A DNA stretch of 64,000 nucleotides, from NCBI GenBank assembly GCA_021292105.1, contig JACFYK010000022.1:47501-111500 (forward strand). The letters run 5' to 3'. The notes below the pieces were generated by a model. It was not told the origin of the DNA and did not search any database. It saw nothing but the letters and a program-made list of their open reading frames with translations. Position 1 is the stretch's first letter. Every line of letters begins with the position of its first letter. Positions 1 through 32,505 of this stretch are shown piece after piece. Position numbers and translations under genes: made by a program. The DNA comes from Anadara kagoshimensis (Eukaryota > Mollusca > Bivalvia > Arcoida > Arcidae).

Positions 1-3000
1 GAGACGATTTTCCGATCGGAGAACCTTTAAAAATAGGCCTCGGACAAAAAATGCACTAGTTGGTATATCCCCACCAAATGACCTTAACTTAAGATTTCAG
101 ATTTTCCTATCAATTTTTTAGTGACTCGGTTTTTCGTCTCTAACTTTTTTATTTTTAAGAGTTTTTTCCTGGCATATATATTGCCGAATAGGTATTTTAA
201 TTCTCTACAACGTCTTAAAAGCGATTTGGAATATCTTTAACATTCAGCAAGATATGGCCAATTTTCCTACCCACCATGCATTTTTGCCATTTTCATTTCA
301 GGTTACAAAGATGAAGTTATAGGTTGACCCTACCCATGTTTGAGCACTTATAACTTTTGATCTCTTCATTTGATTTTAAAACTGTTTGCAAATTCGGAAC
401 CGCAAGACATGTATCTACCATATTATATAACATACAGTTCTTATCGGTCCAAAAAATCATGAAACCAAGGGCATGGTTAGGTTCATTTTGGTAACTTAAT
501 CAAATTTTGTCCGTTTTTGCCTAGGGTTGATGTGTTAAAAGCCACGTTTGCTTAGGGTTTTAGTGCGGGAAGGAAGCTATATTCATTATAATTACTATGG
601 AAAAAAGACTGGTTTCAATTCTTTTTCTCAATGCCGATCCATGGGAAAAATTCAAATTTCCCGTTTACGTCATTTTAGTAACCTTTTAGCAGGGGGGTAT
701 TTCAAAAATCTGTAAAAATTCCCTGAAGAAGATACAATAATCTAGTGACTGTAAGTGGATTGGCAACTGTTTGTTTTGCCAGGTCACAAAAAATCATTCT
801 TGTAAATTGCTTTAAACTATGAAAATTCATTGCCAACATTTTAACAAAAATGACATAAAAATTGCAAAATTTCAAAGGGAGTACATTTTCGCATTTTCTA
901 TCTGAACTTTATTTTAATTACAATTGAATAAAGTATGTGATTAAAACAACGGCCATGCAAATGCATCTGGTGCTCAGCATATTATTTACCGAGTCAAGAG
1001 TCGTCAAAAATTAACCCCCCAATTGATTTTTGCCTAGGGTTATGTTGATTATTAAGAGATATTTTGATGAAACTTAAAAGCAAAGAAATTACAACACAAT
1101 TACTTATGTCTACCAAATTAACTTCAAATATTCATGTTTTTTCTCGTTTATATGCATGTAAATTTTTTTCACTTATCAAGTTGTCATATGCTGTATAACT
1201 ATTTCAAACGAAACACTTTAATGTCATTAAATTAAGTTGTTCTTACGCTGTTTCATTTACTTCACAAACTTTATTATTTGATTATTCTTCATTCTGAAAA
1301 GATCTACTCATCATTATTTCATTTTTGTAACTTATTCTCTGTTTCTAATGTTTAAATTATTTTCATAGTTAAATGCATTGAAACAAAGAAACTTTGACTA
1401 GTAACTATAGCATATTGGACATACTATCACTAACGCTATTTTATTGCAAAGAAAGCGTTCGATTTCTACTTGAAAGAACAATGTTTTTTGACGTGATATT
1501 TATTACCAAAAATCTAAAAACAGTTTGTTAATTCGCTTTAATATTTGCAGTTATATGATCTATGGTTTCATATTTGTAACATTATCAGCGATCAGTTAAG
1601 TGTATATGGAAAACAGGCATAATATTTTGCAAAATTGTTTCAAAATGATTAACTGCTAGGGTTATATACTTATACATTACATATCATTATGGTATTGATA
1701 TAATAAAAGAGACGATAAAGATGTCTATGTTGACATTCCATACAATAGAAAAGATAGCATATTTACGTTAACTTTAACCTTTTGTTTATGCGAATAAGTT
1801 ACAAAAATGAAACCATTGCGTTAGGGTAGTTAACAACGAAGTAGACATATTGAGGATGAACCTATTACTTACATTAACAAAATATGATCTAAGGAACTTG
1901 TAAAACAGGGTTTACCCTTACTGAATGGATTCCACAATAATGTATATCCTAACCACGGAAGTATCATTTATGTAACTTAGTTAATAACAATTCATCAGAA
2001 CAAAGAATATTGATACATTCATCAATACTGAACTTTAACTCTGTATATCTATGTCAATATCATGTTTTTAAAATCCCCGCACTTGTGACCGTTTGCATAT
2101 CAATGTAAAACTTAAGGATAACATATGAATTGTTATATTCAAAATACCAGAAATGGCGGAAAGCGATTCAATGGTACACATTCTAGTTTGCACATAAATG
2201 TATCGTGCGCGTGGAATATATCAATGAGATATTTAAAATGATTGACTGGAGCCATTTTGTTACCATGCGTTGTAAAATTTAATGGAATTTTTTGAAAATG
2301 TTCTTACTTTCTTACGGCTCTGAATGCAACCAACTACTTGATATTATGAAATCAGATGCATCTATAGGATGGACATATTCACGAGGTACACAATGAGTTA
2401 TTTTAAATGTTTCAAAGTAGCTTCATTTGATACGATGCGCTGCAAAACTTAAGGGTCACCTATTAATCACTTATCAACTTTAAGTTACAAAAATGATGTT
2501 CATAGGGTTTGTCTGGCAAGGATTAAATACAAGATAATATATGATTATCTTTGCTTTTATGGCATCATATCAATCCAACATAACAACTCAAGTATGCTAT
2601 TCTAGACAGAAATGTCATACTATTGTCGGATTTTTTTAATCATGAACAAATCATTTTTGTAACTTATAAAAAATAAGTTACAAAAATGAAAAGTTTGGGG
2701 TTATAATGTATTCAGTTAACATACGACTTAATTGACCAAGGATCGTTAGTTACTTATGATTTGAGTTATGTACTATTCACAAATAAGGTGAAAACGATTG
2801 AATTATCATTTTGTCTCTTTACTGTTCTAACCCTGATATCTCATTTTTGTAACCTAAATTAAGTTACTGAAATGAAATTTTCCCAGTTAGACATTTATCG
2901 TCCTAACATTAGTTATTTTAGTACTAATTTAAAAATACATATAAAGAGTTCTATTATCTATTCATATTAATAAAACATCTACCTGTTGTACATTATTTAA

Positions 3001-4222
3001 ACCGAAAAATCTCTAACCACGGAAATTTCATTTACGTAACTTAATTTAGGTTACAAAAATGAAAATATCAGGGTTGATCAGCAAACAGCCGAAATGATAT
3101 AATTCAATCTTTTGTGCATTTTTAAAATAAAATAAAGCTAATTTATTATTATTTAACAGTATTCTATTAATTGAGTCTGATATTTGGTTACAAAATTAAA
3201 GAGAATAGGATTGGACATTCTCATGTAAAAATCATCAATACTATGTATTAGTTGATAAATATATGGTAGTTGAGTGATCTTTTACATTACTTATACACTA
3301 GCTCAAAAACATATCTTATAGCGTGAAAATGTCTAACCGCTAACAATTGGATGTAATTTATGTTACAAAAATGAAAATCAGGTTTGATGAAAACATGTTA
3401 TTATCATAAAATTCAATCATTTCTCCCCATTTATGAATAACACATAACTTAAATCATATGTAACTAACACGCCTTAGTTAATGGAGTTGTGCATTAATGA
3501 AAAATATTCTAACCCCAAATTTATCATTTTTGTAACTTATTGTTTATAAGTTATCAAATACATGAGATTTTGATTAGGCCATTTTTCTTTTGGAATGAAT
3601 TACAAACAATGTATTGATGTGTCATTCCAATAACACAGTATCAAATGGTGTGCGAAATACAGTAAAGACATCAAATTCAGGGTTAATTACACTGTAGCTG
3701 TATATAAGTGAATACTGTATGTGATTAAAATGAAAAATTGCTACAAAAACGAAAAGAACATAGATATTTAAATGAAACTATGGGTTAATTAAGAAGAAAA
3801 TTATAACGCAACTGACATAATGGTTTCTCGCGTTTAATTTTGTGAAAAAAAAAATTTATTTTTCGTAAGGTGTACCCCTTGAGAATTTTTTCGTGTAAAA
3901 TTTTTTTCTCTTCAAATCTTTTAAAGCTTCATATTATTCAAGTCTATGTTAAAATATCTTTAAGGAATCAATAAGAAACTGCCTTTAATCTGTATTTAAC
4001 AAAGTAATAGACAACTTAAGAATACTGTTTAAGTTACAAAAATGATACACATAGGGTTAGGAAAATTACAGGACAAGATGACATTTTTGTTTGGATTAAA
4101 CATAATTCTACTGTCACATTGAATTGAAGTAATGAGGTAATTGCGAGGATAAAGACCCATTATGTTATATTAAGTTGCCACCATTCTAATCCTGTGTACT
4201 TCATTTTGGTAACTTATATTAT

Positions 4223-6529
4223 GTTACAAACTGAAAATACTGTGGTTAGAGTTTTTTGAGAGATTAATTTGGTTTAGAAACGCAAACAAACTGGTAGATG
4301 ATGATCAATATTCTTCTTTTTAATATCCAATTGACATCAAAACCTTAGATCACGATATTAAAACTATTATAAGCTATCTCCCTTATTTAAAGAGATAGAG
4401 CAAATTTGACATGCATTTTCATACTATGATTTTCAATGACGAGTTCAAATCTATCGAAATATTTTAGGTGCCGTTGATCAATTCCTAAATGTTTCCCATG
4501 GTGCCTAATCATAATTAAATGATTTATATTCGTTTCAAATACCTAAAAAATTTGAGAAAAAGTCATTTGTATGACAAGCATATTGTAAAATATGTTACCA
4601 TATTTTTATAAGAAACATTTCTGATAAAATGATGTTTTTTTCTTGATAAATCTTGTCTTTTTAATAAGTCAAGATACCATAAATTACTGATAATGACTTG
4701 ATTCGAGGCTATAAGCTTATTTATTATTTTTTATAATTTAATTTATTTTCTACCATTTATAAAATTTTTAAAAAATTAAACTATTCTTATTGACATAAAT
4801 TGACATGTATCGATAAAACATGTAAAACGCATATGTTTCCAATTCTAAAAAGGATGGAATCGAACGTTTTTTACCATTCAAAAATAGGGGAAATTAGACC
4901 TGATTATGTTACAAAAATGATTGTACCGCGTCTAGATATTTTATCAGAAATAATTTGTATTTTGTTCAAATAATTTGAAATTACAGTAACATTTTATTTG
5001 CCTTGCAATCCGAATCGAAATTGTAAAAACTACCATTTCTGCATCTAATTGAACATCCAAAACGACCTTGATTATGTTACAAAATGCAAATGTCGTGGTT
5101 GAGACAGGGTTAACGTAAAAATATTTTTCAAAATTCTGCCAAAATTCTGGACAACTGTACTTATGCAACCTTGACATAAATCATGTTAGTTAGATGGTAA
5201 AAAAATATTGAAGCCTCAAACAAACAAAAACTTATGACGTCTTTGTCTTTGAGAAAACAATTGAAATGGTGTTTTCTCTCCTAGATTTGAGGCTAAATAT
5301 AAGTATGTAAACGCATTTCGTCATAAAACATATTAAAGTCCTAAACCTGATACCCTGAAATCATGCCTTTTAGGTTACAAAAATGAAAATACTGCGGTTA
5401 GAGTTTTTTTTTAAAGATTAATTTGGTTTAGAAACGCAAAATAACTGGTAGATGATGATCAATATTCTTCTTTTTAATATCCAATTGACATCAAACCTTA
5501 GATCACGATATTAAAAACTATTATAAGCGATCCTCCCTTATTTAAAGAGATAGAGCAAAATTTGAATGCATTTCATACTATGATTTTCAATGACGAGTTC
5601 AAATCTATCGAAAGATTTTAGTGCCGTTGTTCAATTCCTAAATGTTTCCCATGGTGCCTAATCTGATTAAATGGTTCATATTCATTTCAAATTCCCTCAA
5701 AAATTTGAAAAAATGTCATTATATGATAGCATATTGTAAAATATGTATACCATATTTTCATAAGAAAACATTTCTGATAAAATGATGTTTTTTCTTGATA
5801 AATCTTGTCTTTTAATAAGTAAAGATACCATAAATTACTGATAATGACTTGATTCCAGGCTATAAGCTTATTTATTATTTTTTTATATTTAATTTATTTT
5901 CTACCATTTAATATAAATTTTCAAAAAATTAAAACTATTCTTATTGACATAAAATTCACATGTATCGATAAAATATGTCAAATGCATACGTTTCAAATTC
6001 CAAAAAGGATGGAAACAAACGTTTTTACCATTCCAAATAGGGGAAATTAGACCTGATTATGTTACAAAATGATTGTACCGTGTCTAGATATTTTATCAGA
6101 AATAATTTGTATTTTGTTCAAAAATTTTGAATTACAGTAACATTTTATTTTGCCTTTGGCAATCCGAATCGAAATTGTTGAAAAATGACCAATTCTGCAT
6201 CTAATTGACGATCCAAAACGACCTTGATTATGTTACAAAGATGAAATGTCGTGGTTAAGACAGGGTTAACTTAAAAATATTTTTTAAATTCTGCCAAAAA
6301 TTCTGGACAACTGTACTTATGCAACCTTGACATATCATGTTAGTTAGATGGTAAAAAAAATATTGAAGCCTCAAACAAAAAAAAACTTATGACGTCTTTG
6401 TCTTTGAGAAAACAATTGGAATGGTGTGTTTTCTCTCCTATATTTGAGGCTAAATATAAGTATGTAAACGCATTTCGTCATAAAACATATTAAAGTCTAA
6501 ACCTGATACCCTGAAATCATGCCTTTTAG
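4223..6529 (+). repeat. Internal tandem duplication, about 1.15 kb x 2
   Basis: Within copy 1, segment 4223-5373 is repeated as 5374-6529. Both begin with a GTTACAAA motif followed by AAATACTG-(C/T)GGTTAG and share the same downstream landmarks (the paired AGAGATAGAGCAAA, TACCATTTA and GACGTCTTTGTC stretches). The divergence between these two is clearly larger than between the two 7.45-kb units, so this duplication is older. Confidence 0.85.
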
Positions 6530-6691
6530 GTTACATATCTGAAAAACTATACGTTGTTTTTTTACCAGTCTAAGTGCATTTTAGCTAACTTTTTAGCTTT
6601 ATACAACCCACAGACCTGTTACAAAATAATTTTAGGCTTTGTAGGTTACAAAATTGAATCCTGTGATTAGAGAAAATTTGCTTAACCGCAA

Positions 6692-7045
6692 GTTACAAGT
6701 ATGACATTGCAAGTTACTAACTTAGTACTTTATGTTACAATATTGATATTTATGTTACCAAATAGACATATATGTTACGTATAATAAAATTAAGTTACCA
6801 AAATGACAAATAAGTTACGAACGTGAAAAAGAGTTTACTATATTGATTTTTAGTTACAATGATGAATTATTAAGTTACATCTAATGATTTTTTGTTACTA
6901 TAATGATTTTTATGTTACAATATTGATCTTAAGTTACTAGATGAAATCTTAAGTTACCTAGTGAATCTAGAGGTTACAAAGTTGAAACCGTAAGTTACCA
7001 ACAGTATTTAATAGGTTACAAAAAAAACATGTAAGTTACAAAAAA
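6692..7045 (+). repeat. GTTAC array with 20-21-bp period
   Basis: GTTAC starts recur at 6692, 6713, 6734, 6754, 6774, 6794 and 6814 and continue to the telomeric tract. The following bases loosely keep the (A/T)-rich NNNATGA end of the longer motif. The array directly precedes the CCCTAA repeats. The same arrangement is seen before all four telomeric tracts in the window. Confidence 0.85.
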
Positions 7046-7056
7046 AACTCGGTAAT

Positions 7057-7154
7057 AACCCTAACCCTAACACTAACCCTAACCCTAACCCTAACCCTAA
7101 CCCTAACCCTAACCCTAACCCTAACCCTAACCCTAACCCTAACCCTAACCCTAA
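7057..7154 (+). repeat. Interstitial telomeric tract 1, (CCCTAA)~16
   Basis: About 16 CCCTAA repeats with one CACTAA variant. The flanks are inverted: AAACTCGGTAATAA on the left and TTATGATCGAGTTT on the right. Orientation agrees with a chromosome end to the left. Confidence 0.95.
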
Positions 7155-7454
7155 TTATGATCGAGTTTCTAACCACGGCGGTTAGACATTCATTTTTGTA
7201 CCCTGATTTTTTAGCATCTCTAAAAACGTTTGCAAAAATGATATTTTTTTGAAATTTTGATTGAAATCACTTGTTTTTGTTTCAATCTGTTGATATAAAA
7301 AAATTCAACTTTAAATGATATGTTTAAATGCCCAGGGTTAGAGATGGAAAAACCACTGGTTCATCATTGTAACATAATTCATTTTCTTTATAATAGAGGG
7401 TTAGAAAAGGTTGTTAGGGGTTAGAGAGGGTTTGACGCGCAATTCTAACCCTTC
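7155..7454 (+). repeat. Spacer between unit copies 1 and 2
   Basis: About 300 bases linking the first telomeric tract to the start of the second unit. It holds several single CTAACC/GGTTAG hexamers and a degenerate TCATTTTTGTA motif near 7189, but no coding sequence. The region after the second telomeric tract is different, so this spacer is seen once. Confidence 0.6.
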
Positions 7455-10400
7455 GAGACGATTTTCCGATCGGAGAACCTTTAAAAATAGGCCTCGGACA
7501 AAAATGCACTAGTTGGTATATCCCCACCAAATGACCTTAACTTAAGATTTCAGATTTTCCTATCAATTTTTTAGTGACTCGGTTTTTCGTCTCTAACTTT
7601 TTATTTTAAGAGTTTTTTCCTGGCATATATATTGCCGAATAGGTATTTTAATTCTCTACAACGTCTTAAAAGCGATTTGGAATATCTTTAACATTCAGCA
7701 AGATATGGCCAATTTTCCTACCCGTCATGCATTTTTGCCATTTTCATTTCAGGTTACAAAGATGAAGTTATAGGTTGACCTACCATGTTTGAGCACTTAT
7801 AACTTTTGATCTCTTCATTTGATTTTAAAACTGTTTGCAAATTCGGAACCGCAAGACATGTATCTACCATATTATATAACATACAGTTCTTATCGGTCCA
7901 AAAAATCATGAAACCAAGGGCATGGTTAGGTTCATTTTGGTAACTTAATCAAATTTTGTCCGTTTTGCCTAGGGTTGATGTGTTAAAAGCCACGTTTGCT
8001 TAGGGTTTTAGTGCGGGAAGGAAGCTATATTCATTATAATTACTATGGAAAAAAGACTGGTTTCAATTCTTTTTCAATGCCGATCCATGGGAAAATTCAA
8101 ATTTCCCGTTTACGTCATTTGTAACCTTTTAGCAGGGGGTATTTCAAAAATCTGTAACAAATTCCCTGAAGAAGATACAATAATCTAGTGACTGTAAGTG
8201 GATTGGCAACTGTTTGTTTTGCCAGGTCACAAAAAATCATTCTTGTAAATTGCTTTAAACTATGAAAATTCATTGCCAACATTTTAACAAAAATGACATA
8301 AAAATTGCAAAATTTCAAAGGGAGTACATTTTCGCATTTTCTATCTGAACTTTATTTTAATTACAATTGAATAAAGTATGTGATTAAAACAACGGCCATG
8401 CAAATGCATCTGGTGCTCAGCATATTATTTACCGAGTCAAGAGTCGTCAAAAATTAACCCCCCAATTGATTTTTGCCTAGGGTTATGTTGATTATTAAGA
8501 GATATTTTGATGAAACTTAAAAGCAAAGAAATTACAACACAATTACTTATGTCTACCAAAAATTACTTCAAAATATTCATGTTTTTTCTCGTTTATATGC
8601 ATGTAAATTTTTTTCACTTATCAAGTTGTCATATGCTGTATAACTATTTCAAACGAAACACTTTAATGTCATTAAATTAAGTTGTTCTTACGCTGTTCAT
8701 TTTACTTCACAAACTTTATTATTTGATTATTCTTCATTCTGAAAAGATCTACTCATCATTATTTCATTTTTGTAACTTATTCTCTGTTTCTAATGTTTAA
8801 ATTATTTTCATAGTTAAATGCATTGAAACAAAGAAACTTTGACTAGTACCTATAGCATATTGGACATACTGTCACTAACGCTATTTTTTTGCAAAGAAAG
8901 CGTCGATTTCTACTCGAAAAAACAATGTTTTTTTTGACGTGATATTTTATTACCAAAAATCTAAAAACAGTTTGTTAATTCGCTTTAATTTTGCAGTTAT
9001 ATGATCTATGTTTCATATTTGTAACATTATCAGCGATCAGTTAAGTGTATATGGAAAACAGGCATAATATTTTGCAAAATTGTTTCAAAATGATTAACTG
9101 CTAGGGTTATATACTTATACATTACATATCATTATGGTATTGATATAATAAAAGAGACGATAAAGATGTCTATGTTGACATTCCATACAATAGAAAAGAT
9201 AGCATATTTTACGTTAACTTTAACCTTTTGTTTATGCGAATAAGTTACAAAAATGAAACCATTGCGGTTAGGGTAGTTAACAACGAAGAAGACATATGAG
9301 GATGAACCTATTACTTACATTAACAAAATATGATCTAAGGAACTTGTAAAACAGGGTTTACCCTTACTGAATGGATTCCACAATAATGTATATCCTAACC
9401 ACGGAAGTATCATTTATGTAACTTAGTTAATAACAATTCATCAGAACAAAGAATATTTGATACATTCATCAATACTGAACTTTAACTCTGTATATCTATG
9501 TCATATCATGTTTTTAAATCCCCGCACTTGTGACCGTTTGCATATCAATGTAAAACTTAAGGATAACATATGAATTGTTATATTCAAAATACCAGAAATG
9601 GCGGAAAGCGATTCAATGGTACACATTCTAGTTTGCACATAAATGTATCGTGCGTCGTGGAATATATCAATGAGATATTCAAAATGATTGACTGGAGCCA
9701 TTTTGTTACCATGCGTTGTAAAATTTAATGGAATTTTTTGAAAATGTTCTTACTTTCTTACGGCTCTGAATGCAACCAACTACTTGATATTATGAAATCA
9801 GATGCATCCTATAGGATGGACATATTCACGAGGTACACAATGAGTTATTTTAAATGTTTCAAAGTAGCTTCATTTTGATACGATGCGCTGCAAAACTTAA
9901 GGGTCACCTATTAATCACTTATCAACTTTAAGTTACAAAAATGATGTTCATAGGGTTTGTCTGGCAAGGATTAAATACAAGATAATATATGATTATCTTT
10001 GCTTTTATGGCATCATATCAATCCAACATAACAACTCAAGTATGCTATTCTAGACAGAAATGTCATACTATTGTCGGATTTTTTTAATCATGAAAACAAT
10101 CATTTTTGTAACTTATAAAAAATAAGTTACAAAAATGAAAAGTTTGGGGTTATAATGTATTCAGTTAACATACGACTTAATTGACCAAGGATCGTTAGTT
10201 ACTTATGATTTGAGTTATGTACTATTCACAAATAAGGTGAAAACGATTGAATTATATCATTTTGTCTCTTTACTGATCTAACCCTGATATCTTCATTTTT
10301 GTAACCTAAATTAAGTTACTGAAATGAAATTTTCCCAGTTAGACATTTATCGTCCTAACATTAGTTATTTTATGTACTAATTTAAAAATACATATAAAGA

Positions 10401-11686
10401 GTTCTATTATCTATTCATATTAATAAAACATCTACCTGTTGTACATAATTTAAACAGAAAAATCTCTAACCACGGAAATTTCATTTACGTAACTTAATTT
10501 AGGTTACAAAAATGAAAATATCAGGGTTGATCAGCAAACAGCCGAAATGATATAATTCAATCTTTTTGTGCATTTTTAAAATAAAATAAAGCTTAATTTA
10601 TTATTATTTAACAGTATTCTATTAATTGAGTCTGATATTTGGTTACAAAATTAAAGAGAATAGGATTGGACATTTCTCATGTAAAAATCATCAATACTAT
10701 GTATTAGTTGATAAATATATATGTGTAGTTGAGTGATCTTTTACATTACTTATACACCTAGCTCAAAAAGTATCTTATAGCGTGAAAATGTCTAACCGCT
10801 AACAATTGGATGTAATTTATGTTACAAAAATGAAAATCAGATTTTGATGAAAACATTGTTATTATCATAAAATTCAATCATTTCTCCCCATTTATGAATA
10901 ACACATAACTTAAATCATATGTAACTAACACGCCTTAGTTAATGGAGTTGTGCATTAATGAAAAATATTCTAACCCCAAATTTATCATTTTTGTAACTTA
11001 TTGTTTATAAGTTATCAAATACATGAGATTTTGATTAGGCCATTTTTTCTTTTGGAATGAATTACAAACAATGTATTGATGTGTCATTCCAATAACACGG
11101 TATCAAATGGTGTGCGAAATACAGTAAAGACATCAAATTCAGGGTTAATTACACTGTAGCTGTATATAAAGTGAATACTGTATGTGATTAAAATGAAAAA
11201 TTGCTACAAAAACGAAAAGAACATAGATATTTAAATGAAACTATGGGTTAATTAAGAAGAAAATTATAACGCAACCTGACATAATGGTTTCTCGCGTTTA
11301 ATTTTGTGAAAAAAAAAATTTATTTTTCGTAAGGTGTACCCCTTGAGAATTTTTTCGTGTAAAATTTTTTTCTCTTCAAATCTTTTAAAGCTTCATATTA
11401 TTCAAGTCTATGTTAAAATATCTTTAAGGAATCAATAAGAAACTGCCTTTAATCTGTTATTTAACAAAGTAATAGACATTTTAAGAATACTGTTTAAGTT
11501 ACAAAAATGATACACATAGGGTTAGGAAAATTACAGGACAAGATGACATTTTGTTTAGATTAAACATAATTCTACTGTCACATTGAATTGAAGTAATGAG
11601 GTAATTGCGAGGATAAAGACCCATTATGTTATATTAAGTTGCCACCATTCTAATCCTGTGTACTTCATTTTGGTAACTTATATTAT

Positions 11687-14530: not shown

Positions 14531-14547
14531 AAAAAAAACTCGGTAAT

Positions 14548-19205: not shown

Positions 19206-19480
19206 TCATTTTGATAAAAACACAACATGTGATTGACAAACTACAAAACGTATAACATGTTACAGCGGATGAACAATAATTTAAAAAACAAAATCAATAC
19301 CTTATTTTCTTGATCATAAAAACTTTATGGTTACAAAAATGACGATGTTGCGGTTAGAAGGTTAACCACTGAAAACTAAGATAAAATAGGTAAAACTTTG
19401 TTTATATGCTTTAATGCTCAAAACGGCAAACGTTAAATCATTTTATTCAATTAATATCAATTGAATATCAAAGATATTTA

Positions 19481-21093
19481 CTAACCGCAGAAACTTCATT
19501 TTTGTAACTTAATTTAAATGTTACAAAAATGATAAATCTGCGGTTAGGATTGAAACCGTCTTAAACGATAGAATTTTAGTTTTTTTTATTTGTTTCGAAA
19601 CAACCCTTTTCTATTACAAAGATTTTAATATTAAAACACATATAAATCCTTTTTAAAATGACTTAAAACACCTAACCGCGGCATCGTCATTTTTGTAACT
19701 TATTTTAGAATAGGTTACAAAAATGACGATTCTACGGTTAGACATTTTTACGTTAAAACATTACACATTACATGCTCCAAATACTTTAAATTGATTTAAT
19801 AAGATATAATATGATAAGATAAATTGTTTTATCTGTTTAAAACACTTTAGGATTGTAGAAAACTTCTAACCGCAACAATATCATTTTTGTAACGTTAAAA
19901 AATAAGTTACAAAAATGATGATTCTGCGGTTAGAGTTGAAACAGTCTTAAATGATAGAATTTAAAAAGTTTTTCATTTGTTTCGAAACAACCCTTTTTCA
20001 TTACAATGATTTTAATATTCAAACACATTTAAATCCTTTTTAAAATCACTTAAAAAAGCTAACCGCGGCATCGTCATTTTTGTAACTTATTTTAGAATAG
20101 GTTACAAAAATGACGATTCTACGGTTAGACATTTTTACGTTAAAACATTACATATTACATGCTCCAAATACTTTAAATTGATTCAATAAGATATAATATG
20201 ATGGGATAAATTGTTTTATCTTTTTAAAGCACCTTAGGATTGTAGAAAACTTCTAACCGCAACAATATCATTTTTGTAACGTTAAAAAATAAGTTACAAA
20301 AATGATGATTCTGCGGTTAGGGTTGAAACAGTCTTAAATAATAGAATTTAAAGAGTTTTTCATTTGTTTCGAAACAACCCTATTTCATTACAAAGATTTT
20401 AATATTCAAACACATTTAAATCCTTTTTAAAATCACTTAAAAAAGCTAACCGCGGCATCGTCATTTTTGTAACTTATTTTAGAATAGGTTACAAAAATGA
20501 CGATTCTACGGTTAGACATTTTTACGTTCCAACATTACTCATTACATGCTCCAAATACTTTAAATTGATTTAATAAGATATAATATGATGGGAAAAATTG
20601 TTTTATCTGTTTAAATCACTTTAGGATTGTAGAAATCTCCTAACCGCAACAATATCATTTTTGTAACGTTAAAATTAAGTTACAAAAATGATAGTGCTGC
20701 GGTTAGAAGTTTTTTATGGTCCTATAGTGTTTTTAAATGAAAAAAACAATTTATCCATCATGTTATATTTTATTTAATCAATTTAAAGTATTTGTAGCAG
20801 ATTATATGTAGTGTTTAAACGAAAAAATGTCTAACCGTAGAATCATCATTTTTGTAACCTATTCTAAAATAAGTTACAAAAATGACGGTGCCGCGGTTAG
20901 CTGATTTAAGCCTTTTTGAAAGGATTTTAAATGTGTTCAAGTTTTAAAATCTTTGATATGAAAAAGGATTGTTTCGAAACATATGAAAAACCCTTTAATT
21001 TCTTTGATTTTAGACTGTTTTAACTCTAACCGCAGACTTATCATTTTTGTAACTTATTTTTTTACGTTACAAACATGATAATTGTAGGGTTAG
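19481..21093. repeat. Array of nine bipartite dyad sites, 193-bp spacing
   Basis: Dyads start at 19,481, 19,672, 19,866, 20,059, 20,253, 20,446, 20,640, 20,831 and 21,026 (intervals 191, 194, 193, 194, 193, 194, 191, 195). Each is 67-70 bases: two 28-bp half-sites head-to-head with an 11-14-bp centre. Two inter-site spacers alternate, making a dimer of about 387 bp, and spacer orientation reverses at the 20,640 dyad. A lone half-site sits at 19,331. Confidence 0.95.
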
Positions 21094-21219
21094 TCCAATA
21101 CATTTTTATAACATTAGATTTTGGCAATTCTTTTCTAATTTTCAATACATCCTTACCAAAATATCGATTAAAAAATATTCTGTTCTATAAAGACAACTTT
21201 TATTTTGAGCAAAAAAGCT

Positions 21220-21237
21220 GTAAGGGGTACCCCTTAC
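21220..21237. repeat. Perfect 18-bp palindrome
   Basis: GTAAGGGGTACCCCTTAC is its own reverse complement. A one-mismatch version lies in the right arm near 25,422, and related CGTAAGGTGTACCCCTT copies occur near 3865 and 11,328 in the 7.45-kb units. The junction at 30,661 begins with the right half of this palindrome. Confidence 0.9.
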
Positions 21238-22954
21238 AAAATTTTTAAAAAAAAAATTTTTTTGTTTTTTTTTAACCAAAACATGTTGATGTATCAGACA
21301 CTATAAATGACCTTGCATTATCTATAATTTGGGAAGTTTTAAAATTTAAGTTCAAAATCTCCTTCATTTTAATGGTTTATATGCATTTTTAGCACAGAAC
21401 CCTATCAAAATGGTGCATCTTTTGAAATGTATACATAATCCACTAAACAATGGTTGGATTTTGTATAATATAGGACATATTTTATAATAAAACTATCTTT
21501 TATTTCTTGCTGCAACAATGATATGAAGCAGTAAAAGTTAAGGTCGATTTCTCTTTAAATTTAATAGTGTTTTGTACATTTTTTAGCACAAACTTTGTAA
21601 TATAGTGCAAAATAGTGCATCTTTTGATATGAACAGATAATGCACTTAAAAGATGGTTGGATTGTCTATCATATGGGTATATATTGTCTAAAATTTTATT
21701 TTATTTTCGATTTTTCAGACATGTGAATGTTAACATTACAAAGTACGATTCTACAATGTGTTTGGATGACGCTCTGATAAGATATCATACTGGTATCGTT
21801 TAGAATATCCTAAATATTAAAATTACAATTTATACCAGCTTAAAAATTGTATAGTTTCTTTTTTTAAATGTATCAATACAATTGAGTTACAAAAATGACG
21901 TTACCGCGGTTAAGATTTTTTAGGTATAATTTAATGTTTTAAACACACAGTAATAGTGTATGCATTAGACAATTAACCGTTTTGTCATACTGTGGTAAAA
22001 TTCTTATTAGAAAATTAAAATTGCAAAAATTATAAGCTTTGTCATCTGAAATAGTACATATCAATTTAAACAATACTTTTCATTGATTGCTTAAACAAAC
22101 TATTTGAGAATACTATTTAACGTACAAATTGTTAAAAACCATCTTACAAATAAAAGTTTGCGTACTTATGGCACATTTGTGGCAAATGTTATGAGGTGAA
22201 AAATTCATCTTGGTCGTTTAACAAGATAATGTATATATTAAGATCAATAATGAAAAAATACATAATAAACTGTTTGTTTGAAGCCAAGGGTTAGATTATT
22301 TCTTATAAAACTAGGTAAAAAACCGACCTTGATTAAGTTACAAAAATGACTGTACCGCGGTTAAAAATATTTACATAGTATTCTATAGTAAACCACTTTA
22401 CAAACATGATATATTGACAGCCGGTAATGCATTTTATTATACTAAACAAAACAGAACATCAAAAATCGACATCTTCAATGTTTTAAAAGACTCTCAATAT
22501 CGGGTTGATTAAGTTACAAACATGAAAATCTGACGGTTAGAAAAGGGTTAACATAAAAACCCAAGAAAAGTTGTCGCGCTTTTGTGTTGTTAAGCAATTT
22601 ATATCGTTTTACTTTAAACTTCGTCAGGGTTAGGACTCATATTAATACTTAGAGGTCAAACCAAAAAAAATTGATAACAAATTTGTTTTCTAACAAATCG
22701 AGCTGAAACTTGGCAAAATAGTAAAGAGGTTTATAAAGATTAAGTAGACAAAGTTTTTTCTTTCGAAATTTAAGGATAAAGGGGAAATTTTAGCTAACCG
22801 CGGAGCGTCATTTATGTAACTTTAAGAGATTTCGTTTGGTCATATCTCGGTCAAAAAGTGATCTTTTGAAAAACGGAAAAGAATGTCCACCCGCGTTTAG
22901 AAAGCACTTTTTTATGTCTTAAACAATCCAAAATTGAAAATTTTGTCTATCGTT

Positions 22955-23185
22955 ACATAAATGACATGAGTTACATAAATGATATTTGGGTTACATTTGA
23001 TGATTATTTAAGTTACATAAATGATAATTTAGGTTACATTAATGATATTTAAGTTACAATAATGACAGTTACGGTTACAATAATGATGTGAGTTACAATA
23101 ATGAGCGCGCCGGTTACAAAAATGAACCGCAGGGTTACAAAAATGAAAATTATGGTTACAAAAAGACGGTTACCGTTACATAAAC
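22955..23185 (+). repeat. 21-bp GTTAC array left of central telomeric tract
   Basis: GTTAC starts at 22,990, 23,012, 23,033, 23,053, 23,074, 23,092, 23,113, 23,134, 23,155 and 23,176: mostly 21-bp steps. Most copies continue as GTTACANNAATGA. A spacing of 21 bases equals two turns of B-DNA, so each copy would face the same side of the helix. Confidence 0.93.
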
Positions 23186-23198
23186 GTCCGTAACGATA

Positions 23199-23422
23199 AC
23201 CCTAACCCTAACCCTAACCCTAACCCTAACCCTAACCCTAACCCTAACCCTAACCCTAACCCTAACCCTAACCCTAACCCTAACCCTAACCCTAACCCTA
23301 ACCCTAACCCTAACCCTAACCCTAACCTAACCCTAACCCTAACCCTAACCCTAACCCTAACCCTAACCCTAACCCTAACCCTAACCCTAACCCTAACCCT
23401 AACCCTAACCCTAACCCTAACC
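23199..23422 (+). repeat. Central telomeric tract 3, (CCCTAA)~37
   Basis: About 224 bases of CCCTAA with one five-base repeat. It sits exactly at the centre of the inverted repeat. Flanks are mirror images: GTAACGATAA on the left, CCATCGTTACGAACG on the right. Confidence 0.97.
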
Positions 23423-23440
23423 ATCGTTACGAACGTTTAT

Positions 23441-23669
23441 GTAACGATAATTGTCATTTTTGTAACGATAATTGTCATTTTTGTAACCCTGCGGTTCATT
23501 TTTGTAACCGGCGCGCTCATTATTGTAACTCACATCATTATTGTAACGGTAACTGTCATTATTGTAACTTAAATAATCATTTATGTAACCTAAATAATCA
23601 TTTCTGTAACTTAAATAATCATTTATGTAACCCAAATATCATTTATGTAACTCATGTCATTTATGTAAC
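23441..23669 (-). repeat. 21-bp GTAAC array right of central telomeric tract
   Basis: GTAAC starts at 23,441, 23,462, 23,483, 23,504, 23,525, 23,543, 23,564, 23,585, 23,606, 23,627, 23,647 and 23,665. Spacing is 21 bp with the same single 18-bp step as the mirrored left array. The array points away from the telomeric tract exactly as its partner does. Confidence 0.93.
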
Positions 23670-25567
23670 GATAGACTAAATTTTCAATTTTTGATTATTT
23701 AAGACATAAAATAGTGCTTTCTAAACGGGGCATGACATATTTTTCCGTTTTTCAAAAGATCATTTTTTGACCAAGATTCGACCAAATTAAATATCTTAAA
23801 GTTACATAAATGACGCTCCGGGATTAGCTAAAATTTCCCCTTTATCCTTAAATTCGAAAGAAAAAACTTTGTCTACTTAAACATTATAAACCTTTTTACT
23901 ATTTTGCCAATTTTCAGCTCGCTTTGTTAGAAAACAAACTTGTTATCAATTTTTTTTGGTTTGACCTTTAAGTATTAATATGAGTCCTAACCCTGACGAA
24001 GTTTTAAGTAAAACGCTAAAAATTGCTTAACAACACAAAAGCGCGACAACTTTTCTTGGGTTTTTATGTTAACCCTTTTCTAACCGTCAGATTTTCATTT
24101 TTGTAACTTAATCAACCCGATATTGAGAGTCTTTTAAAACATTGAAGATGTCGATTTTTGATGTTCTGTTTTGTTTAGTATAAAAAAATGCATTCCCGGC
24201 TGTCAATATATCATGTTTGTAAAGTGGTTTACTATAGAATACTATGTAAATATTTTTAACCGCGGTACAGTCATTTTTGTAACTTAATCAAGGTCGTTTT
24301 TTTACCTAGTTTTTGAAGAAATATTCTAACCCTTGGCTTCAAACAAACAGTTTATTATGTATTTTTCATAATTGATCTTAATATATAAATTATCTTTTTA
24401 AACGACCAAGATGAATTTTTCACCTAATAACATTTGCCACAAATGTGCCATAAGTACGCAAACTTTTATTTGTAAGATGGTTTTTAACAATTTGTACGTT
24501 AAATAGTATTCTCAAATAGTTTGTTTAAGCAATCAATGAAAAGTATTGTTTAAATTGATATGTATTATTTCCAGATGACGAAACATTATAATTTTTGCAA
24601 TTTTAATTTTCTAATAAGAATTTTACCACAGTATGACAAAACAGTTAATTGTCTAATGCATACACTAATACTGTGTGTTTAAAACATTAAATTATACCTA
24701 AAAAATGTTGACCGCGGTAACGTCATTTTTGTAACTCAATTGTATTGATACATTTGAAAAGGAAGAAACTATACAATTTTTAAGCTGGTATAAATTGTAA
24801 TTTTAATATTTAGGATATTCTAAACGATAGCCAGTATGATAGTCTTATCAGAGCGTCATCCAAACACATTGTAGAATATACAAATTATGCAAGATCCTTG
24901 GCACAAAATAAGAACCAATAAAAAATAAATCGTACTTTGTAATGTTAACATTCACATGTCTGAAAAATCGAAAATAAAATGGTATTTTAGACAATATATA
25001 CCCATATGAAAGACAATCCAACCATCTTTTAAGTGCATATCAAAAGATGCACTATTTTGATAGGGTCTTGTACTAAAAATGTACAAAACACTATTAAATT
25101 GAAGGGAAATTGACCTTAACTTTTACTGCTTCATATCATTGTTGCAGCAAGAAATGAAAGATAGTTTTATTTTAAAATATGTCATATATGATACACAATC
25201 CAACCATTTTTAAGTACATTATGTGTACATATCAAAAGATGCACCATTTTGATAGGATCTTGTGCTAAAAAATGCACAAAAACCATTAAAATGAAAGAGA
25301 AATTGAACTTAAATTTTAAAACTACCCAAATTATAAACAATGCAAGGTCATTTGATATCATCAATATAATCAAACAAACATGTTTTAATTAAAAACAAAA
25401 ACAAAAAAAATTATAAAATTTCGTAAGGCGTACCCCTTACAGATTTTTTGCTCAAAATAAAAGTTGTCTTTATAGAATAGAATATTTTTCAATCGATATT
25501 TTGGTTAAGGATGTATTCAAAATTAGAAAAGAATTGCCAAAATCTAATGTAATAAAAATGTAATGGA

Positions 25568-26597
25568 CTAACCCTACGATTCTCATTTTTGTAACCTAAA
25601 AATTAAGTTACAAAAATGATGTCTGTGTTTAGAATTAAAACAGTCTTAAATCAAAGAAATTAAAGGGTTTTTCATATGTTTCGAAACAACCATTTTCCAT
25701 TACAAAGATTTTAAAACTTGAACACATTTTAAATCCTTTCAAAATGGCTTAAATCAGCTAACCGCGGCATCGTCATTTTTGTAACTTATTTTAGAATAGG
25801 TTACAACAATGATCATTCTACGGTTAGACATTTTTTCGTTTAATCACTACAAATAATCTGCTACAAATACTTTAAATTGATTAAATAAAATATAATATGA
25901 TGGGATAAATTGTTTTTTCATTTAAAAACACTATATGACTATAAAAAACTTCTAACCGCAGCACTATCATTTTTGTAACTTAATTTAACGTTACAAAAAT
26001 GATATTGTTGCGGTTAGGAGTTTTCTACAATCCTAAAGTGCTTTAAACAGATAAAACAATTTATCCCATCATATTATATCGTATTATATCAGTTTTAAGT
26101 ATTTGGAGCATGTAATGTGTAATGTTTGAACGTAAAAATGTCTAACCGTAGAATCATCATTTTTGTAACCTATTCTAAAATAAGTTACAAAAATGACGAT
26201 GCCGCGGTTAGCTGTTTTAAGTGAATTTAAAAAGGATTTAAATGTGTTTTAATATTAAAATCTTTGTAATGAAAAAGGGTTGTTTTGAAACAAATGAAAA
26301 ACCCCTAAAATTCTATCATTTAGGACTGTTTCAACCCTAACTGCAGAATCATCATTTTTGTAACTTATTTTTTACGTTACAAAATTGATATTGTTGCGGT
26401 TAGAAGTTTTCTACAATTCTAAGGTGCTTTTAAAAGATAAAACAATTTATACCATCATATTATATCTTATTAAATCAATTTAAAGTATTTGGAGCATGTA
26501 ATGTTTAATGTTTTAACGTAAAAATGTCTAACCGTAGAATCATCATTTTTGTAACCTATACTTAAATAAGTTACAAAAATGACGATGCCACGGTTAG
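25568..26597. repeat. Bipartite dyad array, right arm
   Basis: Dyads start at 25,568, 25,758, 25,953, 26,143, 26,337 and 26,528 (intervals 190, 195, 190, 194, 191). They mirror the left-arm array with one XY dimer fewer, and the spacer orientation reversal is present here too, at the 25,953 dyad. The expected next site near 26,716 is eroded. A single half-site follows at 26,853-26,880. Confidence 0.92.
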
Positions 26598-27009
26598 GTG
26601 TTTTAAGTCATTTTAAAAAGGATTTATATGTGTTTTAATATTAAAATCTTTGTAATAGAAAAGGGTTGTTTCGAAACAAATGAAAATCCCCTTTAATTGT
26701 ATCATTTAAGACGGTTTCAATCTGCGATTAAAAATATCTTTGATATTCAATTGATATTAATTGAATAAAATGATTGAACGTTTGCCGTTTTGAGCATTAA
26801 AGCATATAAAAAAGTTTTACCTATTTCATCTCAGTTTTCAGTGGTAAACCTTCTAACCGCAACATCGTCATTTTTGTAACCATAAAGTTTTTATGATCAT
26901 GAAAATAAGGTATTGATTTTGTTTTTTAAATTATTGTTCATCCGCTGTAACATGTTATACGTTTTGTAGTTTGTCAATCAAATGTGTTTTTATCAAAATG
27001 ACAGATCTT

Positions 27010-27830
27010 AAGTTTGCCCTGTACCGGTCTAAGGTGATACAGAATTTTCAACATTTTATATCATTTTTGCTCATAAAATCAACAATATTGCTTAGATTAA
27101 GTTCAAATTTGGTATGAAGTAACTGCATTTAGTGTCTAACAATACATGAAATTCAATAAATAAATAACTGTAATGATTTTTTTTCAAAATATAGGATCTT
27201 AGGTTTTCCCTATACCGGTCTAAGACGATACAGAATTTTCAACATTTTATATCATTTTGGCTTATAAAGTCAACAATATTGCTTAGATTAAGTTCAAATT
27301 TGGTATGAAGTAACTGCATTTAGTATCTAACAATACATGAAATGAAATAAATAAATAACTGTAATAATTTTTCAAAATATATCTTAGGTTTTCCCTATAC
27401 CGATCTAAGGCGATACAGAATTTTCAAAATTTTACATCATTTTAGGTCATAAAATCTACAATATTGCCCAGATTAAGTTCAGATTTGATATGAAGTATTT
27501 GTATTTAATACCTAACAATACTTGAAAACAAATTAAAGAATAACTGAAATGATTTTTTCACAATATAAGATTTTAGGTTTTTCTATACTGGTCTATGGTG
27601 ATACACAATTTTCAAAGTTTTACATCATTTTAGTTCATAAAATCTACAATATGGCTCAGATAAAGTTCAAATTTGGTATGAAGTATTTGTGTTTAGTACC
27701 TAACAATATTGTAAATTAAATAAATCAATAACTGTAATGATTTTTTCAAAGTATAAGATCTTAGGTTTGTCCTATACAAGTCTAAGATTATAGAGAATTT
27801 TCAAAATTTTATATCATTTTAGGTCATAAA
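27010..27830 (-). repeat. 189-bp satellite, right arm, about 5 copies
   Basis: ACCGGTC-type landmarks at 27,023, 27,214, 27,399, 27,588 and 27,775 give intervals of 185-191. It is the mirror of 17,640-19,205 with fewer copies and more divergence; the last two landmarks have lost the CCGG core. Confidence 0.9.
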
Positions 27831-28260
27831 ATCAAGGTAAGACACCTCAATTTATTGAAACGACATGATTAACATAGAAAAATTAAAAGTTTTTGCTTAA
27901 ATGTTCTACTGAAAATACTCTATCTATATAAGTAACATGACTTTTTACATGTGTCAAGATAGTCTTGATGCAATTTAGATTGAAAATCCATATTAAATCA
28001 CTACTAAGCATCATAAAAAACATTTTAAAAAATGATATATTGTACTTGATATCTTTTGGTGGATTTGAATTTTTCATTGAAAATCATAGTATGAAAATGC
28101 TATCAGAATTGCTCTATCTCTTCTTATAAGGGAGATAGCGTATAACAGTCTCAAATGATAGAATTTAAAGGGTTTTTCATATGTTTCCAAATAACCCCTT
28201 ACATTACAAATATTTTAATATTAAACACATTTAAATCCTTTTTAAAATGACTTAAATCAG

Positions 28261-28520
28261 CTAACCGCGGCATCGTCATTTTTGTAACTTATATTTTAGA
28301 ATAGGTTACAAAAATGATGATTCTACGGTTAGACATTTTTTCGTTTAAACACTACATATTACATGCTACAAATACTTTCAATTGATATAATAAGATATAA
28401 TATGATGAGATAAATTTATTTTTTTATTTAAAATCACTTTAGGATTGTAGAAATTTCTAACCGCAAAAATATCATATTGTAACGTAAAAATTAAGTTACA
28501 AAATGATATTCACGCGTTAG
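28261..28520. repeat. Two bipartite dyad sites, right-arm outer cluster
   Basis: Dyads at 28,261-28,332 and 28,457-28,520, with a single half-site at 28,646-28,672. They mirror the 16,935 to 17,350 cluster. The second dyad has lost bases in both halves. Confidence 0.88.
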
Positions 28521-30660
28521 ACATTTTTGATAAAATTTCGATGAGTTTACTTTGAAAAAGCAATTTATTCTATTATTATATGTATAAAACTATTGATTTA
28601 AGTTATATGCATAATGATATTCATAGCGTTTGTATGAATATATCCCTAACCGCGAAATCTTCATTTTTGTAACCTTAAAATATTAAACTTTAAAGTTTGA
28701 TTTCGAATTTAAGGCTTTTGATTTCAATAAAAAAACTTGTTTTCCATCAGGCCAGTAGAATATCCGCTGTATATATCAATATTGTGTCAGTCAATGATGT
28801 ATTTAATTAAAACCCTAGGTGATTTCTGCACCTTTCTTTAAAACGTCACCATAGCATAAACGAATTTACGATGGTTTTTTGAAAATTATCCTTTGTAGAA
28901 ATGGCATAAAACAACTTCCTTTCACAATTTGAAGCTGCATTCTTTATTTCCTTAAAAGTTATGCACAGTTGAATGTGTTAATTGTATTGATATAGCAAAT
29001 ACAAAAAGTATTGATAGTAATTAAAATTCGATAAACTATAGGTTAGTTTTAAGTATATAAATTAATTTCTATATCGAAAAACATGAAATATATTATGTTC
29101 AAATTTGAAAATATGTTTTTTTATCAATACGATGTTAACGTTACAAAAGTGACAATTTCGCGGTTAGAAAAATTTTATGTTCAAAAGAGCAAAATAATGT
29201 CTGTAGATTTATTAAAAATTAATAAAAAAATCACACTATATGTATGTATAAAAACACTAAATTACAATTATTATTTTGTAAGAAAAAACACATTATTTAT
29301 TTAAAACTAAAGCGCAAAAAATAGTATTAAATCATAGACAAAAGTTTCTAAAAACTAAAGCTATAACTGCATTTATTGAATAATATTTATTATCAAATTT
29401 ACTTGAAGATATTTCAAAGAAAACTATCAAACCCTAGACGTAGGGTTAAATTTAGGGTTATATTTGAACTGTTATCATCCCTGAAATAATCACCAGAGAC
29501 CCAGGGTATGTTGCATGGCTGTTAATTGTGATATAACGTTTCATTTAAAATATTTTTATATTTTCTTTGCAAAAATTGAGCAAACGATGAGTGTCGGAAA
29601 ATTGAAGATTTCTGGCAAAATTTCCACAAATTTGAAATGGATTTTTATCATATATTGAAGTGAGATAGAAGTTAAAGTTTTTTGGTGAAAAGAGATAGAT
29701 ATGTCTAGTGTTGCCTGAAATAAAAATTATTCTGAAAAATCTATTGTTTGAATTTTAAGACATTTTTAAAATTTAGTGCCAATAAAAGGGTTACATAAAT
29801 GATATTTAAGAACAAATTGAACTTTACATTTTTCCGAGCATACAAATGAAGGACAGACAAATTCTTCAAATCAAAAGATAGACCATTTTATACGCTTTAA
29901 AACTGATACCAAACCCTAGGCAATATCTTAAAATTAACCATCAACCCTAGGTGAAAACCTTTAAAAATTGATTAAGTTACAAAAATGACGATATTGAGAG
30001 GCTAGGGTTGATACTGTTTTCTTACATAATTTAAGATTTAAAACCTATTTCCAATAGGCCAATATATGGTCTGTCGAAATTCGTAAACAGTAGTAAAATG
30101 TCAAAAAGCAATAACAAGTTATAACAGGTTGAGCATGTTGGGGGGTCGTCATTTATGAGTTTGAGGTATGGGTGAAAAAAAGTTAATATAGTTATGTATC
30201 TTAAAAAATAAGTAAGATAGCTAACCCTTAGTGAAAGTATAGGTAAACCGAAATTTCAAAATTTTTACTCACTTGATGGAGTATACAACTTAGTACGTCC
30301 TCGGCAGGGAGTGATTTCGAGAAGGCGGGGGTTAGAGAAATGGATAGAATAAACATGTGGGGTTAGGAAAACACCCTAATATAACAAACAAAATCAACTC
30401 TAACCCCCTATTTTGAAGAATTTTAGAAGGGCATTTGATTAAGTTACATAATTGAACCAATGGACGTAGGAACCAAACCCTCAATGGGTAAAACATGAGG
30501 GTTAAAAACGTTTTAAGTGTTAGATTGTATATTTTAGTGAGTTTTATCGATATCAAGCTGCAAAAAACATAAAATTTAATTTTAAAGGGATGAATTATGA
30601 TTTTGAAAAGTCAAGTTACATAAATGACGAAAAAATTCCTAACCTTAACCCTGTAACGAT

Positions 30661-32505
30661 AATTATCCCTTACGAAATTTTATAAAAAAATTTATTTGTT
30701 TTTTTTTTTTAATTAAAATATGTTTGTTTGGTTATATTGATGTATCAGACACTATAAATGACCTTGCATTGTCTTTAATTTGGGTAGTTTTCATATTTAA
30801 GGTCAATTTCTCTTTCAATTTAATAGTGTTTTATGGATTTTTTAGCACAAGACCCTATCAAAATGGTGCATCTTTTGATATGTACTTAAAAGATAGTTGG
30901 ATTGTCTATCATATAGGGTATAACTTGTCTATAATACCATTTCATTTTCTATTTATTAGAGAACTGAATGTTGACATTACAAATTACGATTGATTTTGTT
31001 TTATATTGGTTCTTTTTTGTGCCAAGGATCTTGCATAATTTGTATATTCTACAATTTGTTTTGATGACGCTCTGATAAGACTATCATACTGGCTATCATT
31101 TAGAATATTCTAAATATTAAAGTTGCAATTTAAACCACCGTAACAATTGTATAGTTTCTTCCTTTTCAAATGTATCAATACAATTGAGTTACAAAAATGA
31201 CGTTACCACGGTTAAGATTTTTTTAGGCATAATTTAATGTTTTAAACACACCGCGATAGTGTATGCATTAGATAATTTACCGTTTTGTCATACTGTGGAA
31301 AAATTCTTATTAGAAAATTAAAATTGCAAAAATTATAATGTTTTGTCATCTGGAAATAATACATATCAATTTAAACAATACTTTTCATTGATTGCTTAAA
31401 CAAACTATTTGAGAATACTATTTAACGTACAAATTGTTAAAAACTATCTTACAAATAAAAGTTTGCGTACTTATGGCACATTTGTGGCAAATGTTATTAG
31501 GTGAAAAATTTATCTTGGTCGTTTCACAAGATATTATATATATTAAGATCAATAATGAACAAATATATAATAAACTGTTTGTTTGAAGCCAAGGGTTAGA
31601 ATATTTCTTCAAACACTAGGTGGAAAACCGACCTTGATTAAGTTACAAAAATGACTGTACAGCGGTTAAAAATATTTACAGGGAATTCCATAGTAATTAA
31701 CTTTAAAAACATGATGTATTGATAGGCGAAAATGCGTTTTATTATACCACACAAAACAGCACATCGAAAATCAACATCTTCAATGTTTTAAAAGACTTAA
31801 TATCGGGTGGATTAAGTTACAAAAATGAAAAATCTGACGGTTAGAAAAGGGTTAACCATTAAACCCGCGAAAAGTTGCCGCGCTTTTGTGTTGCTAAGCA
31901 ATTTATATAGTTTTACTTTAAACTTCGTCAGGGTTAGGACTCATATCAATTCTTAGAGGTCAAACCAAAAAAATTGATAACAATTTTGTTTTCTAAGAAA
32001 GCGAGCTGAAACTTGGCAAAATACAAAAAAGGTGTATAAAGATTAAGTAGACAACGTTTTTTCTTTCTAATTTAAGGATACAGGGGAAATTTTTGCTAAC
32101 CGCGGAGCGTCATTTATGTAACTTTAAGAGATTTCGTTTGGTCATATCTCGGTCAAAAATTATCTTTTGAGAAACAGAAAAAAATGTCCTGCCGCGTTTA
32201 GAAAGCACTTTTTTGTGTCTTAATTAATCAAAAATTGAACATTTGGCCTATCGTTACATAAATGACATGAGTTACATAAATGATATTTGGGTTATATAAG
32301 ATGATTATTTAAGTTGCATAAATTATAATTTAAGTGACAAAAATGATGATTTAAGCTACAATAATGACGGTTACCGTTACAATAATGACATGGGTTACAA
32401 TAATGACGGTTACGGTTACAAAAATGAACCGCAGGGTTACAAAAATGACAATTATCGTTACAAAAATGACGGTTATCGTTACATAAACGTTCGTAACGCT
32501 AACTC
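30661..32505 (+). repeat. Partial third copy of the inner arm, direct orientation
   Basis: Follows 21,231-23,198 in the same order and orientation: the ATGTATCAGACACTATAAATG block, the ACAAAAATGACGTTACC site, the GTTAAAAATATTTACA block and the GTTAC array. The start coincides with the right half of the 18-bp palindrome. It is more diverged from the left arm than the two 7.45-kb units are from each other. Confidence 0.9.
32256..32482 (+). repeat. GTTAC array before the last telomeric tract
   Basis: Direct copy of the 22,955-23,185 array with spacing near 21 bp. Some copies have lost the GTTAC core (GTTATATAAG, AGTGACAAAAATG), consistent with decay at the inner edge of the subtelomere. Confidence 0.85.

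Follow-up and report, generated by a model that had tools for sequence, protein, structure and literature searches.

A fixed-gap bipartite word repeated at about one nucleosome repeat in Y'-like chromosome-end units of the bivalve Anadara kagoshimensis

We analyzed a 64,000-nucleotide stretch of the genome of the bivalve Anadara kagoshimensis (the window; GenBank assembly GCA_021292105.1, contig JACFYK010000022.1), the left half of which consists of subtelomeric units filled with a two-part DNA word. In the numbering used for contigs (C2, C3, C4, C5, C6, C8, C9, and C34) and for the loci read (L014, L017, L041, L043, and others), the window is C34:47501-111500 of a 1.115-Gb assembly of 36 contigs; 19 of the 23 contigs examined span 37.7-75.6 Mb. 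At the places read, chromosome ends bear non-coding units of 7-9 kb, comparable in layout to yeast Y' elements and split by telomeric tracts. The window holds 2 copies of unit A, unit B, an inverted copy of B (B'), and part of a further B-type unit, together with the TAACCC tracts that separate units (Table 1). Positions 1-32,500 contain no long open reading frame (ORF), the sole stop-to-stop frame of at least 100 amino acids outside the telomeric tracts and flanking arrays measuring 114. The word consists of GTTACAAAAATGA (word 1), a gap of 8 bases (N8), and SGGTTAG, that is, CGGTTAG or GGGTTAG (word 2). It recurs along each unit with a spacing of about one nucleosome repeat, singly in the distal “head,” as back-to-back pairs in mid-unit, and as ~21-bp arrays at the proximal telomeric junction. 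With a confidence slightly above even, we favor the interpretation that these words are linker sites of a putative chromatin protein whose specificity has diverged between unit classes.

Exact word 1 occurs 80 times in the window (45 on the + and 35 on the − strand), every time within positions 1-32,500, with zero exact copies in 32,500-64,000. Within 40 bases downstream of these copies, GGTTAG was found at offset 9 in 45 instances (the 8 gap bases plus one) and in a single instance each at offsets 8, 10, and 31; gap 8 thus accounts for 45 of 48 cases, and 35 of the 80 copies have no exact GGTTAG at that place. Genome-wide pattern counts were checked against a reversed-pattern control: GTTACAAAAATGA-N8-SGGTTAG gave 1005 exact matches (control, 0), and permitting gaps of 4-12 gave 1020 (control, 1), only 15 of which had a gap other than 8. 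The two-word recurrence at constant gap reported in a preliminary description of this DNA is therefore real, as is the sharp peak at gap 8 that it had set in advance as the test of a genome scan (1005/1020). All 13 places it quoted hold, with the corrections that 4026 is actually 4033, 9243 is 9244, and the copy at 21,066 has one mismatch in word 1. The inverted-repeat arms, the 20/21-bp word 1 arrays beside telomeric tracts, and the many single copies lacking word 2 had been missed in that reading.

The units have been copied extensively: 7.2 kb of unit A is duplicated at 97.7%, an inverted copy of unit B is present as pieces of 87-94% identity, and a part of B recurs once more; many motif copies are therefore plain copies. 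The concern, voiced in the preliminary description, that the spacing might reflect nothing but copying is thus partly justified by the duplication of A and the inversion of B, and fails as a full explanation in view of the number of contexts and the constraint on word 2. When 171 sites (up to 2 mismatches) were clustered by the 119-base stretch past the motif, they fell into 45 downstream contexts. An exact GGTTAG at gap 8 was present in some member of 17 of these, and other gaps were rare (gap 7 in 2 contexts, gap 9 in 1, and gap 14 in 1), 2 of the 4 contexts concerned also holding gap 8. We further compared 67 sites between five non-overlapping pairs of copies, admitting at most one mismatch in word 1. 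Word 2 carried 11 substitutions in 418 positions (2.6%, bootstrap 1.2-4.3%) versus a background of 734/11056 (6.6%), whereas the gap changed at about the background rate (34/476, 7.1%); word 1 carried 16/770, a figure to be read with the caveat that the sites were selected by word 1. The words are thus kept, whereas the gap between them drifts as neutral DNA would, and context clustering together with these rates rules out pure duplication as a full account. A fuller version of that account, in which a single ancestral satellite gave rise to all units and functionless words stay alike through gene conversion, would explain the large duplications and the architecture common to the units. We judge it improbable: gap and flanks evolve at the background rate within the very copies in which word 2 does not, conversion tracts that skip the 8-base gap each time are not expected, and the heads of units E and F carry GTTGC at head positions similar to those where A and B carry GTTAC.

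Base preferences were derived from 36 representatives hand-picked from the 45 contexts (9 were omitted, including the array context) and yielded the consensus TTAR-GTTACAWAAATGA-NRNTNYYR-SGGTTAG. Conservation extends from -4 to +27; outside these limits no column exceeds 0.33 bit. TTAR directly precedes word 1 (T at -3 in 28/36 and A at -2 in 32/36 sites). The gap bases do vary, as first described, but not freely: position 2 is a purine in 32/36 representatives, position 4 is T in 25/36, positions 6 and 7 are pyrimidines in 27/36 and 28/36, respectively, and position 8 is a purine in 31/36. A reading of word 2 as a telomere-like site for a telomere protein is weak, because CGGTTAG is commoner than GGGTTAG (51 versus 31 in the left half of the window, with tracts masked).

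To describe word spacing, we merged words into clusters across units A, B, E, F, and G and compared the intervals with 2000 random-placement trials. Intervals of 160-209 bp made up 48 of 84, versus a random mean of 11.9 and a maximum of 23, part of them coming from tandem arrays and hence being non-independent; in the heads alone the figure was 14 of 18, versus a random mean of 1.9. Offsets from the telomeric junction, with one weaker match per head left out, were 35, 206, 603, 784, and 968 in unit A; 35, 207, 603, 776, and 963 in B; 24, 199, 598, 787, and 966 in E; and 2, 175, 575, 763, and 959 in F. The first 2 intervals (171/397, 172/396, 175/399, and 173/400, respectively) agree within 5 bases and the next 2 within 17 bp, at a head sequence identity, computed with the words randomized, of 0.53-0.62, with z scores ranging from 2.7 (B-F) to 21 (E-F). 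In E, the second head word has three mismatches.

Units E and F keep word positions and gap while mostly reading GTTGC for GTTAC. With a loose pattern, unit E has G at position 4 in 20/20 words; with position 4 free and at most one further mismatch, the counts were 23 A/1 G in A2, 42 A/0 G in B, and 14 G/0 A in E, a class difference with a Fisher value of 1e-14, and unit F has 21 G and 5 T among 26 words. The GTTGC form has 195 exact matches genome-wide (control, 0). At the loci read, GGTTAG stands at gap 8 in 57/61 cases after 110 words of the GTTAC class and in 19/21 cases after 42 words of the GTTGC class. For a whole-assembly scan covering both classes, we propose the pattern GTTNCNNNAATGA-N(0-20)-GGTTAG.

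That most copies in related units changed the same letter suggests that a protein may read the word. The preliminary description had proposed one factor contacting both words about two helical turns apart; the fixed gap, the constrained words, and the neutral gap fit such a contact, the factor itself being putative. From these sequence patterns, we infer a protein, its binding, and a phasing of nucleosomes, as follows. One sequence-specific protein would read GTTRC..AATGA plus a GGTTAG box about two turns off, and it would occupy the linker DNA between phased nucleosomes, thereby organizing subtelomeric chromatin. The GTTAC and GTTGC unit classes might then correspond to two versions or paralogues of the factor, or to one factor with shifted specificity. 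More tentatively, and with less than even confidence, unit classes could be locked to different versions of the DNA-binding factor, one class having rewritten GTTAC/GTTGC at most words while positions, gap, and word 2 were kept, as in concerted co-evolution of site and factor, with a conflict of the host with selfish chromosome-end units as a possible driver. The words might instead act without a specific protein, through A-tract bending, palindrome extrusion, or nucleosome exclusion, and their A-rich core, back-to-back pairing, and nucleosome-scale spacing would suit such roles. We give this little chance, since GTTAC and the GGTTAG box are kept though they are not A-tracts, and the class-wide switch of GTTAC to GTTGC suggests that the identity of the bases is read.

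Many motifs form the arms of 28-bp inverted repeats around elements of 175-186 bp (29 kept; 3 of 32 set aside), which occur in both orientations and recur about every 193 bp. Of 27 pairs of facing words, 25 are separated by 9-16 bp and the other 2 by 7 and 19 bp. Element bodies do not form a single alignable family: in most comparisons between families, identity is close to that expected by chance (shuffled mean, 53%), but related pairs reach 60-99%, and longer alignments of A with B are significant. Such elements could be miniature inverted-repeat transposable elements (MITEs), that is, ~180-bp non-autonomous DNA transposons piled up at chromosome ends in satellite-like fashion, with the 28-bp arms as terminal inverted repeats and the words as transposase sites. 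The arms have the required form, both orientations are represented, and TA often precedes the word, so that the preference at -3 and -2 could mark a TA or TAN target. This explanation, which we consider unlikely, accounts for the inverted ends, but not for the single words, which stand in the heads with no partner nearby and at comparable offsets across four types of unit, nor for the ~21-bp arrays, which are not a transposon form. No empty site was seen among A1, A2, B, and B': gaps between A1 and A2 never exceed 3 bp, and those of at least 8 bp between B and B' include one of 181 bp, which lies in a word-less 189-bp satellite, and one of 444 bp, which starts inside an element. The single 114-residue frame likewise speaks against it.

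The words might also be sites for a recombinase or transposase that moves or amplifies the 7-9 kb units, such as the DUF3504/tyrosine-recombinase type encoded at 56159-57199, an ORF within the window with DUF3504 and phage-integrase domains. It has 76 relatives, a minority of them species-named and all of these from bivalves (Mizuhopecten, Crassostrea, Argopecten, Pecten, Mya, Saccostrea, Mytilus, and Pinctada). Inverted 13-bp words around a short spacer do resemble recombinase sites, but sites of the lox/FRT type require a fixed spacer, and the spacers between paired words vary as given above. Moreover, the sites are spread throughout the unit instead of marking its ends, and some 24 kb separate the ORF from the last telomeric tract; we regard this possibility as very unlikely.

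Statements on genomic location refer to the first 100 of the 1005 matches of the GTTAC class and the first 100 of the 195 of the GTTGC class. Among the GTTAC matches listed, 58 are no farther than 0.8 Mb from an end, and the C3 blocks at 11.2 and 59.6-59.7 Mb contain the other 42. Among those of the GTTGC class, 81 are no more than 125 kb away from a contig end (C4, C5, C6, and C8), all on the + strand at left ends and the − strand at right ends, 11 lie on C2 at most 441 kb from its right end in the opposite sense, and 8 lie on C3, 3 of these far from its ends. The enrichment near chromosome ends anticipated in the preliminary description is thus borne out for most matches listed, with interior exceptions on C3. 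Outward of the window, C34 continues with units E and D, assembly gaps, and telomeric tracts that are 5.0, 3.0, and 2.4 kb long. Unit D is without the word at the tolerance used (position 4 free, at most one further mismatch) and has GCTACGAA/GTTACGAA near its ends. Contig C9 starts with 2.5 kb of telomere, followed by 5,000 N and unit F. When 20 other contig starts were sampled (300 bases each), only C9 was telomeric; most ends are therefore not assembled to the tip.

Several observations weigh against the interpretation of the words as protein sites in chromosome-end linkers. The C3 blocks lie far from contig ends, and assembly gaps at telomeric tracts leave room for misjoins, as near 59.73 Mb on C3, where the 59.7-Mb block ends in a telomeric tract and an N gap, unlike that at 11.19 Mb. 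In the 20 kb read at C3:11186000-11205999 (L043 and L044), the latter is an interstitial, rearranged B-type block with short telomeric tracts only and no gap, possibly a former chromosome end. This copy still partly conserves the words (word 1, 12/276; word 2, 8/159; gap, 18/175; background, 270/3416), and the constraint is therefore not strictly tied to a present chromosome end. A looser comparison, using nine partly overlapping pairs and sites with up to 3 mismatches, gave a weaker effect in the same direction (word 2, 46/1127, P 0.02; word 1, 78/2449; gap, 99/1464; background, 1184/20948), because overlapping pairs and loose sites diluted the signal, and in one of these pairs, B versus the first part of L017, word 1 exceeded the background (5/143 versus 39/1927). 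Unit F, with its 5 T, makes the GTTGC class impure, and C3 holds three GTTGC forms whose gap letters are of B type. With words hidden, A and B show modest homology to E and F (z 4.6, 5.7, and 5.1, and only 2.7 for B-F), and the fourth and fifth head words match in place, not always in orientation. Finally, words and copies are non-independent, which makes the P values optimistic.

Among known systems, alpha satellite with its CENP-B box likewise combines a nucleosome-sized repeat with a protein site, but it is centromeric, lacks telomeric tracts, and has another sequence. MITE-derived satellites, short tandem elements with inverted ends, are similar in those respects and differ from the single head words and ~21-bp arrays of the clam. 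Yeast Y' elements are described as multi-kb tandem units at chromosome ends, often with telomeric repeats between them and with Tbf1/Reb1 sites (PMC13177704). The clam units share the separation by telomeric tracts but are without a long, helicase-type ORF, have diverged to about 53-63% in heads and blocks, and are densely filled with a phased bipartite word; the comparison concerns layout only, no sequence relation having been searched. The statement in the preliminary description that no element of this form is known was too strong. The Plasmodium falciparum SPE2 is a bipartite subtelomeric motif with a short fixed spacer of 4 bp (sometimes 5 bp), bound by the AP2 protein PfSIP2, which requires both halves, and present in hundreds of copies in telomere-associated repeats and upstream of subtelomeric genes (PMC2829057). 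The clam word is alike in its two parts, short fixed gap, and hundreds of subtelomeric copies, and differs in words and gap from the 6-bp GTGCA-type halves and 4-5 bp spacing of SPE2; inverted-repeat arrays and a class-wide word change are not noted for SPE2 in the portion of that source covered here. The inverted repeats, nucleosome-scale spacing, Y'-like units, and class-wide change go beyond what was first observed in this DNA. Titles and opening lines of abstracts on bivalve or mollusc subtelomeres described no such word, and a literature search on GTTACAAAAATGA, leaving the GTTGC form aside, returned items unrelated by title (Pasteurella; a C. elegans/zebrafish cell-cycle sensor). Viral and prokaryotic collections gave 0 exact matches to the motif, and phage records none to 19481-20320.

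Subtelomeres evolve too fast for most comparisons, and decayed yet alignable units within one genome reveal which letters are kept. These give a footprint for a putative chromosome-end protein in a bivalve, and the two word classes would allow a test of how a site present in hundreds of copies evolves together with its reader.

Table 1. Units, telomeric tracts, and repeat arrays in the window
Feature	Position	Strand	Remark
Subtelomeric unit A, copy A1	1..7055	+	97.7% to 7455-14645; left end cut by assembly gap
Example bipartite site in unit A	5374..5401	+	
TAACCC tract between A1 and A2	7056..7154		
Subtelomeric unit A, copy A2	7155..14546	+	duplicate of A1
Diverged array of similar elements in A2	9932..11677		A1 counterpart 2484-4213
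TAACCC tract	14547..14837		
Subtelomeric unit B	14838..23196	+	distantly homologous to A; collinear blocks share about 57-68%
189-bp satellite within B	17653..19212		B' copy 26988-27835; word absent at up to 2 mismatches
Array of ~180-bp elements, 28-bp inverted ends GTTACAAAAATGA-N8-CGGTTAG	19330..21093		period ~193 bp
~21-bp head-to-tail word 1 array	22952..23190	+	abuts telomeric tract
TAACCC tract between B and B'	23197..23422		
B', inverted copy of unit B	23423..30665	-	main pieces 87-94%; 7.7% substitutions in aligned columns
Counterpart array of ~180-bp elements in B'	25583..26880		
Unit C, proximal part of B-type unit	31046..32493	+	91% to 21748-23239
Last TAACCC tract	32494..32542		degenerate
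Further 20/21-bp word 1 arrays	about 6692-7050, 14178-14540, 23436-23670 (-), 32253-32480		

The 2 copies of unit A differ by 103 substitutions and 84 gaps, 70 of them of 1 bp and 58 being bases missing from A1. An N stretch (C34:42501-47500) directly precedes the window, and the many 1-bp indels of A1 look like sequencing error near this assembly gap. Another copy of unit A, located on C2 at 86-94 kb from the end of that contig, shares 99.1% identity with A2 along 7.6 kb. Unit D, together with 2.4-3.0 kb of telomere, is duplicated at 99.1% (C34:1-10395 and 11173-21606; L009-L011) and also contains relatives of the 189-bp satellite of unit B, and a unit-B copy on C3 carries a ~1.75-kb insertion (L017:2231-3980). 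The window contains no tRNAs and no RNA family at the gathering threshold. A segment of ~90 bp that may fold into a hairpin (GCTATCTC...GAGATAG; about 4370-4470, 5525-5620, and 17465-17570) is well conserved between units A and B outside the words and has no Rfam match at that threshold. Just inside the last telomeric tract, 32912-34340 holds a stretch that by eye appears to be zinc-finger-like coding sequence spread over several frames, with a 42-bp tandem repeat; a relative at L041:1508-2447 abuts a telomeric tract on C3. The repeat at 41070-42426 recurs on C2 and C3 (L014, L015, L041, and L043) and adjoins a telomeric tract in L014 and L041.

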